From the IMG/VR virus record IMGVR_UViG_3300037516_000329, positions 1-26,311 of that record: 26,311 bases of DNA; one strand, given 5' to 3'. Both the position numbers and the translations under genes were made by a program. The stretch comes from a virus. How positions within the stretch are numbered: position 1 is the first letter of the stretch; the number at the start of each line of letters is the position of its first letter. The notes under the pieces were generated by a model that saw only the letters and a program-made list of their open reading frames with translations, was not told the origin of the DNA and did not search any database. This document shows positions 15,624 to 24,489 of this stretch, one piece after another.

Positions 15624-16418
15624 ATGAATAACCCAACATACACAATCGCCACCTCTGGTGGCCCATCGCAACACATCGCGCTCGGTGAGCAAGATGTCTA
15701 TAACCGCATGAGCGATCCGCTCGCTGCCGTTGAAAGGCTGGGCGAGATCATCGCATCCAGCGGCATGTTTGGCTGCACTAAAGTGGAGCAGGGCCAGGTG
15801 CTCGCGCTCCAGTGCATCAGCGAAAAGAAGCCACCGCTCGAGCTGGCCAAGACCTACCACATGATCGAGGGCAAGTTGAGCATGCGTGCCGACGCCATGC
15901 TGGCCAAATTCCAGCTCTCTGGCGGCACCGTTAAGTGGACGAAGCGCGACGACAAGGTCGTCGAGGCTACGTTTACGCTCCGCGGCAACTCGCTGCCATT
16001 CTCAGCCAAGCTCGAGGACTTCGTGACGAACGGCGTGGCCGTCAACCGCGATGGCAAGATGAGGGACAACTGGCGCAAATTTCCACGCCAGATGCTCACC
16101 GCCCGCGTCATTTCTGAGGCCGTGCGTCTTCTGGCGCCCGAGGTCGTATTCGGCGTCTACACGCCCGAGGAGATCCAAGACAGCAACAACTCGGCGCCGG
16201 CTCAGGATCCCATTAAAGTCGAGCCAATCGTAGAGTCCTACGCTGACCAGCTTTCTCCGATCTTGATCGACCACGAACAGAGCGTTAATGCCTACCTGAT
16301 CGCCAAAAAACAGATCAGCGAGGGTCAGACCTTCCGCGATGTGTCGTCTGATTTTGCTAAGAAGATTCTCAGTAATTCTAAAATGTTTCTCGAAGCCGTA
16401 AACTCTCAAACCAAATAA
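15624..16418 (+). CDS. RecT-like single-strand annealing recombinase, 264 aa
   Basis: The central part reads GQVLALQCISEKKPPLELAK, TYHMIEGKLSMRADAMLAKF, then strands (TVKWTKRDDKVVEATFTLRG), then WRKFPRQMLTARVISEAVRL followed by LAPEVVFGVYTPEE. The RQML-x-ARVISE-x-R...P-x-V..G-x-YT-x-EE block is characteristic of RecT-type annealing proteins. It would coat and anneal ssDNA during phage recombination and repair. The C-terminal 70 residues are less conserved. An exonuclease-VIII-like gene and an ssDNA-binding protein lie just downstream, the usual partners of RecT. No SD is visible before ATG 15624. Confidence 0.7.
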   Translation: MNNPTYTIATSGGPSQHIALGEQDVYNRMSDPLAAVERLGEIIASSGMFGCTKVEQGQVLALQCISEKKPPLELAKTYHMIEGKLSMRADAMLAKFQLSGGTVKWTKRDDKVVEATFTLRGNSLPFSAKLEDFVTNGVAVNRDGKMRDNWRKFPRQMLTARVISEAVRLLAPEVVFGVYTPEEIQDSNNSAPAQDPIKVEPIVESYADQLSPILIDHEQSVNAYLIAKKQISEGQTFRDVSSDFAKKILSNSKMFLEAVNSQTK

Positions 16419-19608: not shown

Positions 19609-20150
19609 GCGATAAAAACTACAAAAGCTACGCCGACGAACAAAACGTCGTGATCCAGAACGATACCATCGATGCGCCCAACCCCGAGAACTACGACGAC
19701 ATCCTAAAGCTGTCGCACGTCGAGGGCGCCAACATTAACAACTGCATCATCAATCCGTCCGGTGGCAACCGCGAGGACGGCATTGATATCATGCGATTCT
19801 GCCGCTCGATCTACATCGGCAACTGCCAGGTGGGCGCCGGCAAGCTCTACGCATTCACGATCAAGGGCGGATCCTCGCAGATCGATCTGTCCAACGTGAC
19901 GATCATTCGCGGCGGCGGCAGCATCGAGAAGGTCGACATTGATATCGGAAACTACTCGGACAACGCGAAGGGCAAGACGACCGACGTGCGCATCGTGAAC
20001 TGCAAGCGCAGCGATGGCCTGCCGGTTCGTGTGCGCGTGGGCTGGGCTGATCGGCCAGTGGTGATCGGTGGCAACGTGAAGATCCTTTTCTGGCAGTCGT
20101 TGCTTCTCAAAATTTACGTCTACATCAAAAATCTTTTTACCAAAAAATGA
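19605..20150 (+). CDS. right-handed beta-helix-like conserved phage protein, 181 aa
   Basis: Residues about 30-160 show short beta-helix rungs: VEGANINNCIINPSGGNRED, IDIMRFCRSIYIGNCQVGAG, YAFTIKGGSSQIDLSNVTI, VDIDIGNYSDN, TDVRIVNCKRSDGLPVRVRV. This resembles an uncharacterised phage family with a GGNREDGID...IKGG...VDI-x-G pattern. The last 25 residues are hydrophobic and basic (LFWQSLLLKIYVYIKNLFTK), a likely membrane or lipid-contacting tail. Beta-helix folds are usual in tail spikes but here the gene sits among replication genes, coupled by ATGA to neighbours. The function is unknown; a virion component expressed from the early region or a membrane-associated protein are both possible. Confidence 0.6.
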   Translation: MSDKNYKSYADEQNVVIQNDTIDAPNPENYDDILKLSHVEGANINNCIINPSGGNREDGIDIMRFCRSIYIGNCQVGAGKLYAFTIKGGSSQIDLSNVTIIRGGGSIEKVDIDIGNYSDNAKGKTTDVRIVNCKRSDGLPVRVRVGWADRPVVIGGNVKILFWQSLLLKIYVYIKNLFTKK

Positions 20151-20341
20151 ACAACGGCAAGGGCGACTCACCGCGGAACTGTTTCTCGCAGCACTACCGC
20201 GACAACTACGACAACATTTTTAATACCATCACAGGTGAAGACTGGCGCCGAGAGATTCAACGCGGACGGAAAACCAAGAACAAAATCAAGGAGCGCATCC
20301 GCGAAGAATTTGATGAAAGATATCTTAAAGGAAAAAAATGA
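20147..20341 (+). CDS. small basic phage protein with GKGDSPRNCFS motif, 64 aa
   Basis: It starts in the stop of the beta-helix gene (ATGA). The N-terminus MNNGKGDSPRNCFSQHYRDN with YDNIF is a motif I recognise from small uncharacterised phage proteins. The rest is strongly basic helix (RREIQRGRKTKNKIKERIRE). Nucleic-acid or protein contact is plausible, but no function is known. The next gene begins inside its 3' end. Confidence 0.6.
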   Translation: MNNGKGDSPRNCFSQHYRDNYDNIFNTITGEDWRREIQRGRKTKNKIKERIREEFDERYLKGKK

Positions 20342-22888: not shown

Positions 22889-23023
22889 CTAGGGGTCGTT
22901 ATCCTTGTCCTCGATCTTGAAAAAGTACGCCAGCACAGGCCAGAGCATCAAAATCAGTGAAGAAAACGCCAGTGTAAGCAGCAGGGTGATGATTTTGTCT
23001 TTCATAACGTAGGTTGTTAACAT
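22889..23023 (-). CDS. tiny membrane protein, 44 aa (or 38 aa from ATG 23005)
   Basis: Reading the minus strand, ATG 23023 shares a base with the upstream stop (TAATG) and gives MLTTYV before MKDKIITLLLTLAF, then SSLILMLWPVLAYFF and an acidic end KIEDKDNDP. The second ATG at 23005 gives 38 aa and is an equally reasonable start; neither has an SD. There is one transmembrane segment (about 22 residues) after a basic N-terminus and an acidic C-terminus. It is the last gene before the operon terminator. No homology claimed. Possible roles are membrane stress, superinfection exclusion or lysis control, all inference. Confidence 0.55.
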   Translation of the reverse strand: MLTTYVMKDKIITLLLTLAFSSLILMLWPVLAYFFKIEDKDNDP

Positions 23024-23319
23024 TAGGGTTGAGATCGCGTGTTCAGTATTTGAAGCGCAGACTCGGCTTTCTCGGCGCGGGCTTGCCAGTGATCAATAAC
23101 CTCAAGCGATTTCTTGAAACTGTTCCACTCGGGTTCGTACATCTTGGAGCCGATCCAATGGCCCATGTCTAAATTGTCTTTCTTTAACCGCTCCATTTCG
23201 TCGTTGAGGTGTGCGAGTTCGGTTTCGAGTTGGCGGGCAAATGATGCGTGAACCAATTCACTGCCGTCCTCGGTACGGTAAGCCAAAATTTGTTCGTCGG
23301 TTCGTGGCGTAGTGCTCAT
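23023..23319 (-). CDS. small TPRTD-type phage protein with coiled coil, 98 aa
   Basis: The frame begins upstream at 23337 (MEGGQQ), but the second ATG (23319) follows a perfect GGAGG by 7 bases and overlaps the stop of the previous gene by ATGA, so it is the real start: MSTTPRTDEQILAYRTEDGS. The TPRTDEQI N-terminus with a later FARQLETELAHLN coiled coil is a pattern seen in many small phage proteins of unknown function. The rest is helical (ERLKKDNLDMGHW; DHWQARAEKAESALQ). It is coupled at both ends to small membrane proteins. No activity known. Confidence 0.7.
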   Translation of the reverse strand: MSTTPRTDEQILAYRTEDGSELVHASFARQLETELAHLNDEMERLKKDNLDMGHWIGSKMYEPEWNSFKKSLEVIDHWQARAEKAESALQILNTRSQP

Positions 23320-23519
23320 TTGCTGGCCTCCTTCCATTGAAAAGTAGATTTTCCGTCTTTGTCAGCCACCCAAATTGCGTGGCCTTTAACAACGGCTTCT
23401 TTTTCTTTTTCCCTAATCGCATGGCTTTCTCCATATGAACAGCCCACTATGAAAATGACAAATGCGAGAAGAAAAATCATGAAAACCGTCGCTAAATCGA
23501 AATCGTTATTGTCGCTCAT
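23316..23519 (-). CDS. small membrane protein, 67 aa, EAV-KGHA-W family copy 1
   Basis: One transmembrane segment (LATVFMIFLLAFVIFIVGCS, residues about 9-28) is followed by a charged linker and a conserved soluble end, KEAVVKGHAIWVADKDGKST followed by FQWKEASK. The end is shared with the gene at 23850-24047, showing duplication or repeated acquisition. A C-terminal G-HA-x-W...G...F-x-W module on a membrane anchor is common in small phage proteins of unknown role. The last five codons (KEASK) contain the SD of the next gene. The topology is probably N-in with the module on one side of the inner membrane, but direction is uncertain. Confidence 0.7.
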   Translation of the reverse strand: MSDNNDFDLATVFMIFLLAFVIFIVGCSYGESHAIREKEKEAVVKGHAIWVADKDGKSTFQWKEASK

Positions 23520-23671
23520 TTGATTTTATTTGATTTAGGTTCAATCTTGGAATTGTTGATTCTCATTTTAATTGCGTAACCCTCGGCGTCTAATTTAGCA
23601 ATCTCAGCGGCTGTTCTCAGGTTGCGCTTATATTCTTTAAGATCGCGTTTTTCGTTAGATTCTGAGCTCAT
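23516..23671 (-). CDS. small basic protein, 51 aa
   Basis: ATG 23671 lies in the shared junction (stop overlap ATGA with the upstream gene; only a partial SD, AAAGG). The product is MSSESNEKRDLKEYKRNLRT, then AAEIAKLDAEGYAIKMRINN and a basic end SKIEPKSNKIK. It is charged, helical at first, then strand-like (EGYAIKMRI). No motif recognised. It is too tightly fitted between coupled genes to be chance; function unknown. Confidence 0.6.
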   Translation of the reverse strand: MSSESNEKRDLKEYKRNLRTAAEIAKLDAEGYAIKMRINNSKIEPKSNKIK

Positions 23672-23853
23672 TTGCTGGCCTTTCGTTTGCTCTGGTTCTC
23701 TAGTGCGTCAATCGCTGCTGCTGCGTCGCGCATGAGCCGCACGGTAAATAGGTCAACTACTGTCCAGAACGGCATTCTTTTTTCGCAGCCATCGGCGATG
23801 TTGTTCAGGTGTCGCTTAATCTCTTTTCTGCGCTTAACCGTGATCGTGCTCAT
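23668..23853 (-). CDS. small helical protein, 61 aa
   Basis: A longer frame starts at 23871 (MEGVLQ), but ATG 23853 follows GGAG at SD distance and overlaps the upstream stop (ATGA), giving MSTITVKRRKEIKRHLNNIA, DGCEKRMPFWTVVDLFTVRL, then MRDAAAAIDALENQSKRKASK. The N-terminus is basic, the middle hydrophobic/aromatic and the end helical. The final KRKASK is a variant of the recurrent KEASK tail. No family recognised. Confidence 0.6.
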   Translation of the reverse strand: MSTITVKRRKEIKRHLNNIADGCEKRMPFWTVVDLFTVRLMRDAAAAIDALENQSKRKASK

Positions 23854-24047
23854 TTGCAGGACTCCTTCCATTTAAATACAGGGTATCCGTTTTCGTTTGT
23901 ACTCCATACAGCGTGACCTTTTTTAACGGCTTCTCGTTGAAAGTTTTCGCCAAACTGCGAACTACCAAAACCGGTTCCAACCGCAAAACCCAATGACGCG
24001 AATAATAAAGAAATCACGATAAGAGGAACGATAGAATCTTTGCTCAT
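23850..24047 (-). CDS. small membrane protein, 65 aa, EAV-KGHA-W family copy 2
   Basis: The transmembrane segment (IVPLIVISLLFASLGFAVG, residues about 6-24) is followed by GSSQFGENFQREAVKKGHAV and the end WSTNENGYPVFKWKESCK. It aligns with the gene at 23316-23519 over the last 28 residues (EAV-x-KGHA-x-W ... G ... F-x-WKE). The SD AAGGAGG precedes ATG 24047 by 7 bases, from within the upstream gene's last codons. Two paralogues in one operon suggest they form a hetero-pair or that both are swappable cassettes. Confidence 0.7.
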   Translation of the reverse strand: MSKDSIVPLIVISLLFASLGFAVGTGFGSSQFGENFQREAVKKGHAVWSTNENGYPVFKWKESCK

Positions 24048-24295
24048 TTGCTGACCTCCTTGCGTGCTGCAAGACGCGCATCCACCATCTTCTGAATCTG
24101 TTCTTCAAACGCAGCGATTAACAGCTTCGCCGTTTGTTGCGTTGCTTCCTCCGTGGACAAGCCTTCGCCGCAAATCATACGAGCATCGTGCGTGATGCGA
24201 AAGATTTCGCGGTTTTGGTGATTAAAACTCAGCAAATATTCTGGTGTGCTCATTCCGTTTTCTGGAAATCGGTAAACGTCGTCAGTTGGTTTCAT
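24044..24295 (-). CDS. small protein with EIFRITHDAR-type motif, 83 aa
   Basis: The start is ATG 24295 (not the longer frame from 24439), because GGGAGG precedes it at 7 bases and it overlaps the upstream stop (ATGA). The product begins MKPTDDVYRFPENGMSTPEY, then REIFRITHDARMICGEGLST and EEATQQTAKLLIAAFEEQI, ending RLAARKEVSK. The strand-turn-strand FRITHDARMICGEGLSTEEA followed by a helix recalls small phage proteins with a (hydrophobic)-x-I-T-x-D-G-R pattern. No function known. Confidence 0.65.
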   Translation of the reverse strand: MKPTDDVYRFPENGMSTPEYLLSFNHQNREIFRITHDARMICGEGLSTEEATQQTAKLLIAAFEEQIQKMVDARLAARKEVSK

Positions 24296-24489
24296 TTTGT
24301 AACCTCCCACACGGTGCGTTCCATCGCGATCAGCTCGTCCCAGATCTCGCGGCCGGTCTTGGCGCCGTCCATCAGGCGGGAGATCATCTGCTCCTTGGTC
24401 AGCAGCTCGAGATCGTAGTCGAGCGTGCGCGTTATGCATAGCAGGCGTCCGAGATACTCGGCGCGTTTTAGGTCGTTGGAATGATACAT
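24292..24489 (-). CDS. small helical protein, 65 aa
   Basis: The product is MYHSNDLKRAEYLGRLLCIT, then LELLTKEQMISRLMDGAKTG and REIWDELIAMERTVWEVTK. It is nearly all helical with mixed charge, and no known motif. Its start overlaps the previous gene by 22 bp and its last codons (TGG GAG GTT ACA AAA) carry the SD for the next gene. The GC content is higher than in the genes downstream of it. Confidence 0.65.
   Translation of the reverse strand: MYHSNDLKRAEYLGRLLCITRTLDYDLELLTKEQMISRLMDGAKTGREIWDELIAMERTVWEVTK

Follow-up and report, generated by a model that had tools for sequence, protein, structure and literature searches.

Integron gene cassettes are interchangeable small genes that occur in variable order. 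Among phages, the ninR region of lambda was reportedly described by Kroger and Hobom in 1982 as a set of interlinked genes. Short conserved boundary sequences have been described in lambdoid phages (Clark et al. 2001, for HK620, and Susskind and Botstein 1978, both as cited in PMC2327257, PMC3029335 and PMC3233612). Two of these papers leave undecided whether the mosaicism of phages is directed to gene borders by common short sequences, or arises at random and is afterwards filtered by selection (PMC3029335, PMC3233612). Additionally, the cluster K mycobacteriophages carry the SAS element, which, as far as the excerpted description goes, has the consensus GGGATAGGAGCCC, lies 3-7 bp upstream of start codons and is accompanied by inverted repeats in about half of the cases (PMC3203893).

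The locus presented here belongs to an uncultured phage. The window, meaning the whole stretch of DNA that was analysed, comprises positions 1 to 26,311 of the IMG/VR record IMGVR_UViG_3300037516_000329. Its minus strand bears a chain of micro-genes, named B, C, D, E, F, G and H, linked by 4-bp ATGA overlaps from B/C through G/H. Gene B (24292-24489) is an open reading frame of 65 aa whose product ends in WEVTK, and is the upstream neighbour of gene C (24044-24295; 83 aa, from MKPTDDV to KEVSK). These are followed by D (23850-24047; 65 aa), E (23668-23853; 61 aa, a cassette), F (23516-23671; 51 aa), G (23316-23519; 67 aa) and H (23023-23319; 98 aa, beginning MSTTPRTDEQ), all on the minus strand. 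The products of D and G are apparently membrane-anchored micro-proteins. Pfam and PHROG scans of the micro-proteins returned no usable family, annotated phage DNA contained no match to the region, tblastn of C and H against annotated phages gave no match, and a protein search with H retrieved one contig only. The primase has distant matches only. On the plus strand, a RecT-like single-strand annealing protein is encoded at 15624-16418 (PHROG 561, E 4.4e-23; Pfam RecT above its cut-off). A GKGD-type small gene beginning MNNGKGDSPRNCF is also present on the plus strand at 20147-20341, and similar genes stand behind the joint in three comparison contigs (L028, L029, L263).

The initial annotation had drawn attention to four near-identical junctions of 20 bp on the minus strand, and all four are indeed found. 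They lie at G/H (23314-23333), E/F (23666-23685), D/E (23848-23867) and C/D (24042-24061), have GCAAATGAGC in common, and read AAGGAGGCCAGCAAATGAGC, which is the consensus form, CGAAAGGCCAGCAAATGAGC, AAGGAGTCCTGCAAATGAGC and AAGGAGGTCAGCAAATGAGC, respectively. When up to three mismatches are allowed, the consensus occurs three times in the window and in none of 100 dinucleotide shuffles. The upstream genes translate the joint as KEASK, KRKASK, KESCK or KEVSK, exactly as had been read. The same bases were also said to supply the next gene with its Shine-Dalgarno (SD) site and its ATGA start; this is true of the start, since an ATG sits within the 4-bp overlap at each joint, and needs qualification for the SD, which is weak at 23666. 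The F/G junction (23516-23519) consists of CAAATGAGC only and has no SD. Apart from these two places, the gene pairs have the arrangement of ATGA termination-reinitiation pairs, with a 4-bp overlap and an SD inside the upstream gene. The looser joint noticed at B/C (24292-24309, minus strand) is present and reads TGGGAGGTTACAAAATGA. It represents a second recurrent form (EVTK), and the sequence of this junction, GGAGGTTACAAAATGA, differs from that of the other joints.

One- or two-gene cassettes of this chain are gained, lost or exchanged between phages, and homology often starts or stops at the joints. It had been proposed that the joint would be kept while different genes came to fill the same slots, and this is what comparison with other contigs reveals, for E, F with G, and H each occur elsewhere at 92-95% identity. 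Genes F and G move as a two-gene cassette in L027, where positions 23316-23681 are matched at 92% and both ends fall within joints. Gene E is found in L249 from joint to joint (192 of 202 nt, 95%) with two other genes as neighbours. Gene H is matched in L026 at 95% identity from the joint (23334) inward, with a different gene in front, and this 22-kb record has only 404 nt in common with the window. In close relatives, which have 16-19 kb of DNA in common with the window, these slots are filled differently. C is followed by other genes in L006 and L008, and L003 (18.7 kb in common) lacks E-F-G and joins D straight to H, the switch lying within about 10 nt of joint sequence in common. This arrangement is what a crossover between the D/E and G/H joints would give, or else the window gained E-F-G. 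Relatives that keep the same gene order without any swapping were not seen. As with a lambdoid-type boundary, a short border sequence is kept between phages and its flanking genes differ. The joint itself served to retrieve many of the comparison contigs. The same arrangements are seen in more than one assembly (L006 and L007; L177 and L208; L169 and L205), and misassembly is therefore unlikely as the main cause.

The ends of mosaic homology coincide with the boundary sequence, in that 20 of 29 hand-compiled block ends, a partly joint-ascertained set, are no more than 6 nt away from a joint, a zone that makes up 9.9% of the region. Among contigs found by the primase, the proportion is 4 of 8 ends (P 0.005). 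Some homology ends away from joints, near 23060 and 23213, so other sites and the exchange of C-terminal parts contribute as well. As a separate observation, proteins of the C and H families look modular, with constant N-terminal parts and exchangeable C-terminal segments such as YVDDALAATKEASK (window, L005, L023, L026, L044), and the C and H genes contain extra breakpoints near 23060, 23213 and 24066.

The homologues of gene C allow the joint to be compared with its flanks in 12 sequences, the window included, which were found by protein or primase search and not via the joint. Leaving out the outlier L268, which has no joint, the 14-nt joint itself has a mean pairwise identity of 0.90, the 60 nt before it 0.47 and the downstream side 0.32. 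The downstream value falls to 0.27, that is, random, when only the 61 pairs whose downstream genes are non-homologous are taken. The expectation that the joint is more conserved than the genes it links is thereby upheld in the gene C set (90% against 47% upstream and 27% downstream). From the protein search, 11 C homologues were inspected and ten of them have a joint form at their end, the exception being L268 and L267 not being counted separately. The relatives of gene C differ in their C-terminal part and in the gene that follows, about seven gene families standing in the downstream position, and the joint is kept. Homologues of C are also preceded by a joint form behind several different genes (L023, L215, L026), and the EVTK form recurs in this position behind different genes.

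We think it likely that the joint is an interchangeable boundary that translational coupling preserves and that serves as homology when genes are exchanged, the recombinase step being conjectural. The 18-20 bp unite the final five codons of the upstream gene, the Shine-Dalgarno site and the 4-bp ATGA stop/start overlap. Any micro-gene that starts after one joint and ends with another would then fit the chain, leaving stop, ribosome site and start intact. The joint would persist thanks to strong translational coupling, and could offer a short homology patch for phage recombination, carried out for example by the RecT-like protein at 15624-16418 or by host functions. Joint copies may share CCAGC, which is not needed for translation, through descent from one another by exchange. 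The joint itself may be the substrate of recombination, or only a boundary kept by selection. The RecT-like protein is a candidate recombinase with a putative role; Pfam RecT occurs in only 6 of 18 joint-bearing records, some of which are fragments, and the ERF annealing protein in none of the 18. The minimal homology for Red and RecA is about 30 bp, though blocks of identity far shorter than this could accommodate crossovers (PMC2327257). As 18-20 bp is below that minimum, the joint alone may recombine poorly and flanking similarity may be needed.

Of the other explanations, the one that survives best, though unlikely, appeals to translation only. It regards the joint as an optimal termination-reinitiation element under selection, with illegitimate recombination occurring anywhere and survivors restoring the SD and ATGA, so that breakpoints only seem bound to joints. 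Termination-reinitiation at ATGA overlaps is well documented (PMC6728339). An SD with an ATGA overlap yields K-E-x-x-K-stop in all sorts of viruses, because AAGGAGG at this distance from the overlap forces this ending, and the K-E-x-x-K outline is therefore ordinary. A conserved tail peptide was considered and rejected, for among distinct single-base variants one is synonymous and seven are not, against 6 and 33 possible, the numbers being small. Nothing indicates selection on the tail peptide, and the idea that the proteins share a tail for its own sake finds no support.

Against translation as the only cause stands the spacer. A scan for AAGGAGG-N4-CAAATGAGC, with the four spacer bases free, found at least 117 sites in IMG/VR, among which no fewer than 60 spacers are represented, yet the swapping sites share one. 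In a scan with the 20-mer, all 24 stretches had the CCAGC form and none the equally allowed TCAGC form. Additionally, identity covers the entire joint in non-homologous contexts. The bacterial and archaeal collection held seven stretches with the 20-mer, and the exact 20-bp joint was seen in genomes of tubeworm (Lamellibrachia) endosymbionts (L270, L273, L275). A change of gene partners is far more frequent at sites with the CCAGC spacer than at the remaining sites. When a gene-swap pair is defined as two contexts that agree in one flanking gene, upstream or downstream, and differ in the other, such pairs make up 18 of 153 among the 18 distinct CCAG contexts, 3 of 31 among contexts with the same other spacer and none of 2819 with different non-CCAG spacers. 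Further joints of the locus's own variant are present in the same contig at 8 of 19 CCAG loci, as against 7 of 96 others (Fisher P 4e-4). The contigs are partly one gene pool, so these spacer counts show swapping with the joint kept and not its cause.

Improbable, and more so than translation alone, is a regulatory role comparable to that of the SAS in cluster K mycobacteriophages, in which an RNA or protein would bind the joint and swapping would be incidental. As for SAS in the available part of its description (PMC3203893), one conserved sequence precedes many unrelated small genes and bases beyond SD pairing are conserved. However, a single operon contains degenerate forms of the sequence (TCCTGC, CGAAAGG) and, at F/G, lacks it altogether, and another viral set behaves in the same manner with another spacer. 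For this second joint, AAGGAGGTAAACAAATGA (KEVNK), 88 viral stretches were retrieved; the records of the set are L054, L069, L144, L153 and L289-L363. A fixed leader gene of 43-46 aa comes first, and more than 20 gene families follow at the joint, as cassettes in permuted orders such as 0-7-3, 0-7-1, 0-3-1, 0-5-8-6 and 0-5-14-1. All 10 homologues of cassette 3, gathered by protein search alone, have the joint with at most one mismatch, behind four unrelated genes. The second joint thus behaves like the first in another viral set. Gene 2 of that set is a counter-example to joint-only exchange, as it sits behind several different genes without an exact joint at its 5' side; the single 5' junction looked at in detail, that of L303, reads AGGAGGTAAACAAGTAATG and is a changed joint, and L306 and L317 have no joint there.

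Within the window, D (ending at 23850) and G (ending at 23316) are paralogues (36% identity, E 2e-14), and an 89-nt repeat contains the joints D/E and G/H, so that the tails of D and G are not independent. The earlier statement that unrelated proteins carry the same tail is accordingly right in part: several non-homologous families bear it, and two of the four bearers are paralogues. Distant homologues of D and G in L014, L017 and L018 end at another shared junction, TGGGGGGCGAAGCCATGAG (WGAKP), with different downstream genes. Plain duplication and descent, by which similar ends would come from gene duplication and homologous C-terminal parts and no general cassette exchange would exist, can account for these two joints and fits the recurrence of tails such as YVDDALAATKEASK on C and H family proteins, but is very improbable as a whole, since the tail is on several non-homologous families and the joint-to-joint matches of E, F with G, and H in other phages with other neighbours largely refute it.

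The interchangeable boundary may tentatively be extended to a wider picture, in which we place less confidence than in the boundary itself. Several unrelated phage lineages could have settled independently on a lineage-specific joint that combines tail, ribosome site and start. The operon would then be a domino-like array whose micro-genes come, go and change places through joint annealing, as a counterpart of gene-cassette arrays that works without a dedicated integrase. In practical terms, the joint predicts cassette borders, and helps to delimit tiny genes with no annotated function in uncultured phages. The joints also present one border sequence reused at many slots, which would allow a direct comparison of recoded variants.

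Compared with the known systems, the likeness to integron cassettes is one of outcome and serves as an analogy only; the second viral set resembles them also in its fixed leader gene, and the joint differs in being short and coding. The lambda ninR region is likewise a chain of small genes with several ATGA-type overlaps. Unlike the window, it has no joint common to its junctions, as the nin junctions tested contain no common 14-mer (1-9 of 14 matches, against 8-13 of 14 among the four window joints). The SAS, in the portion of its description at hand, resembles the joint as one conserved SD-containing sequence before many small non-structural genes of different families; its consensus differs, the joint sequence does not show GGGATAGGAGCCC at 3-7 bp before the start, and that portion describes neither an upstream-tail role nor cassette exchange (PMC3203893). 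The boundary sequences of lambdoid phages, going by the citing papers, are also short and conserved at gene borders and are proposed as homology for module exchange. Unlike them, the joint recurs at several slots of one operon, so that the order and number of cassettes can change, and it lies inside coding sequence, where it is SD and start codon at once. The nearest known idea is thus that of the lambdoid boundary sequence, of which the joint represents a variant.
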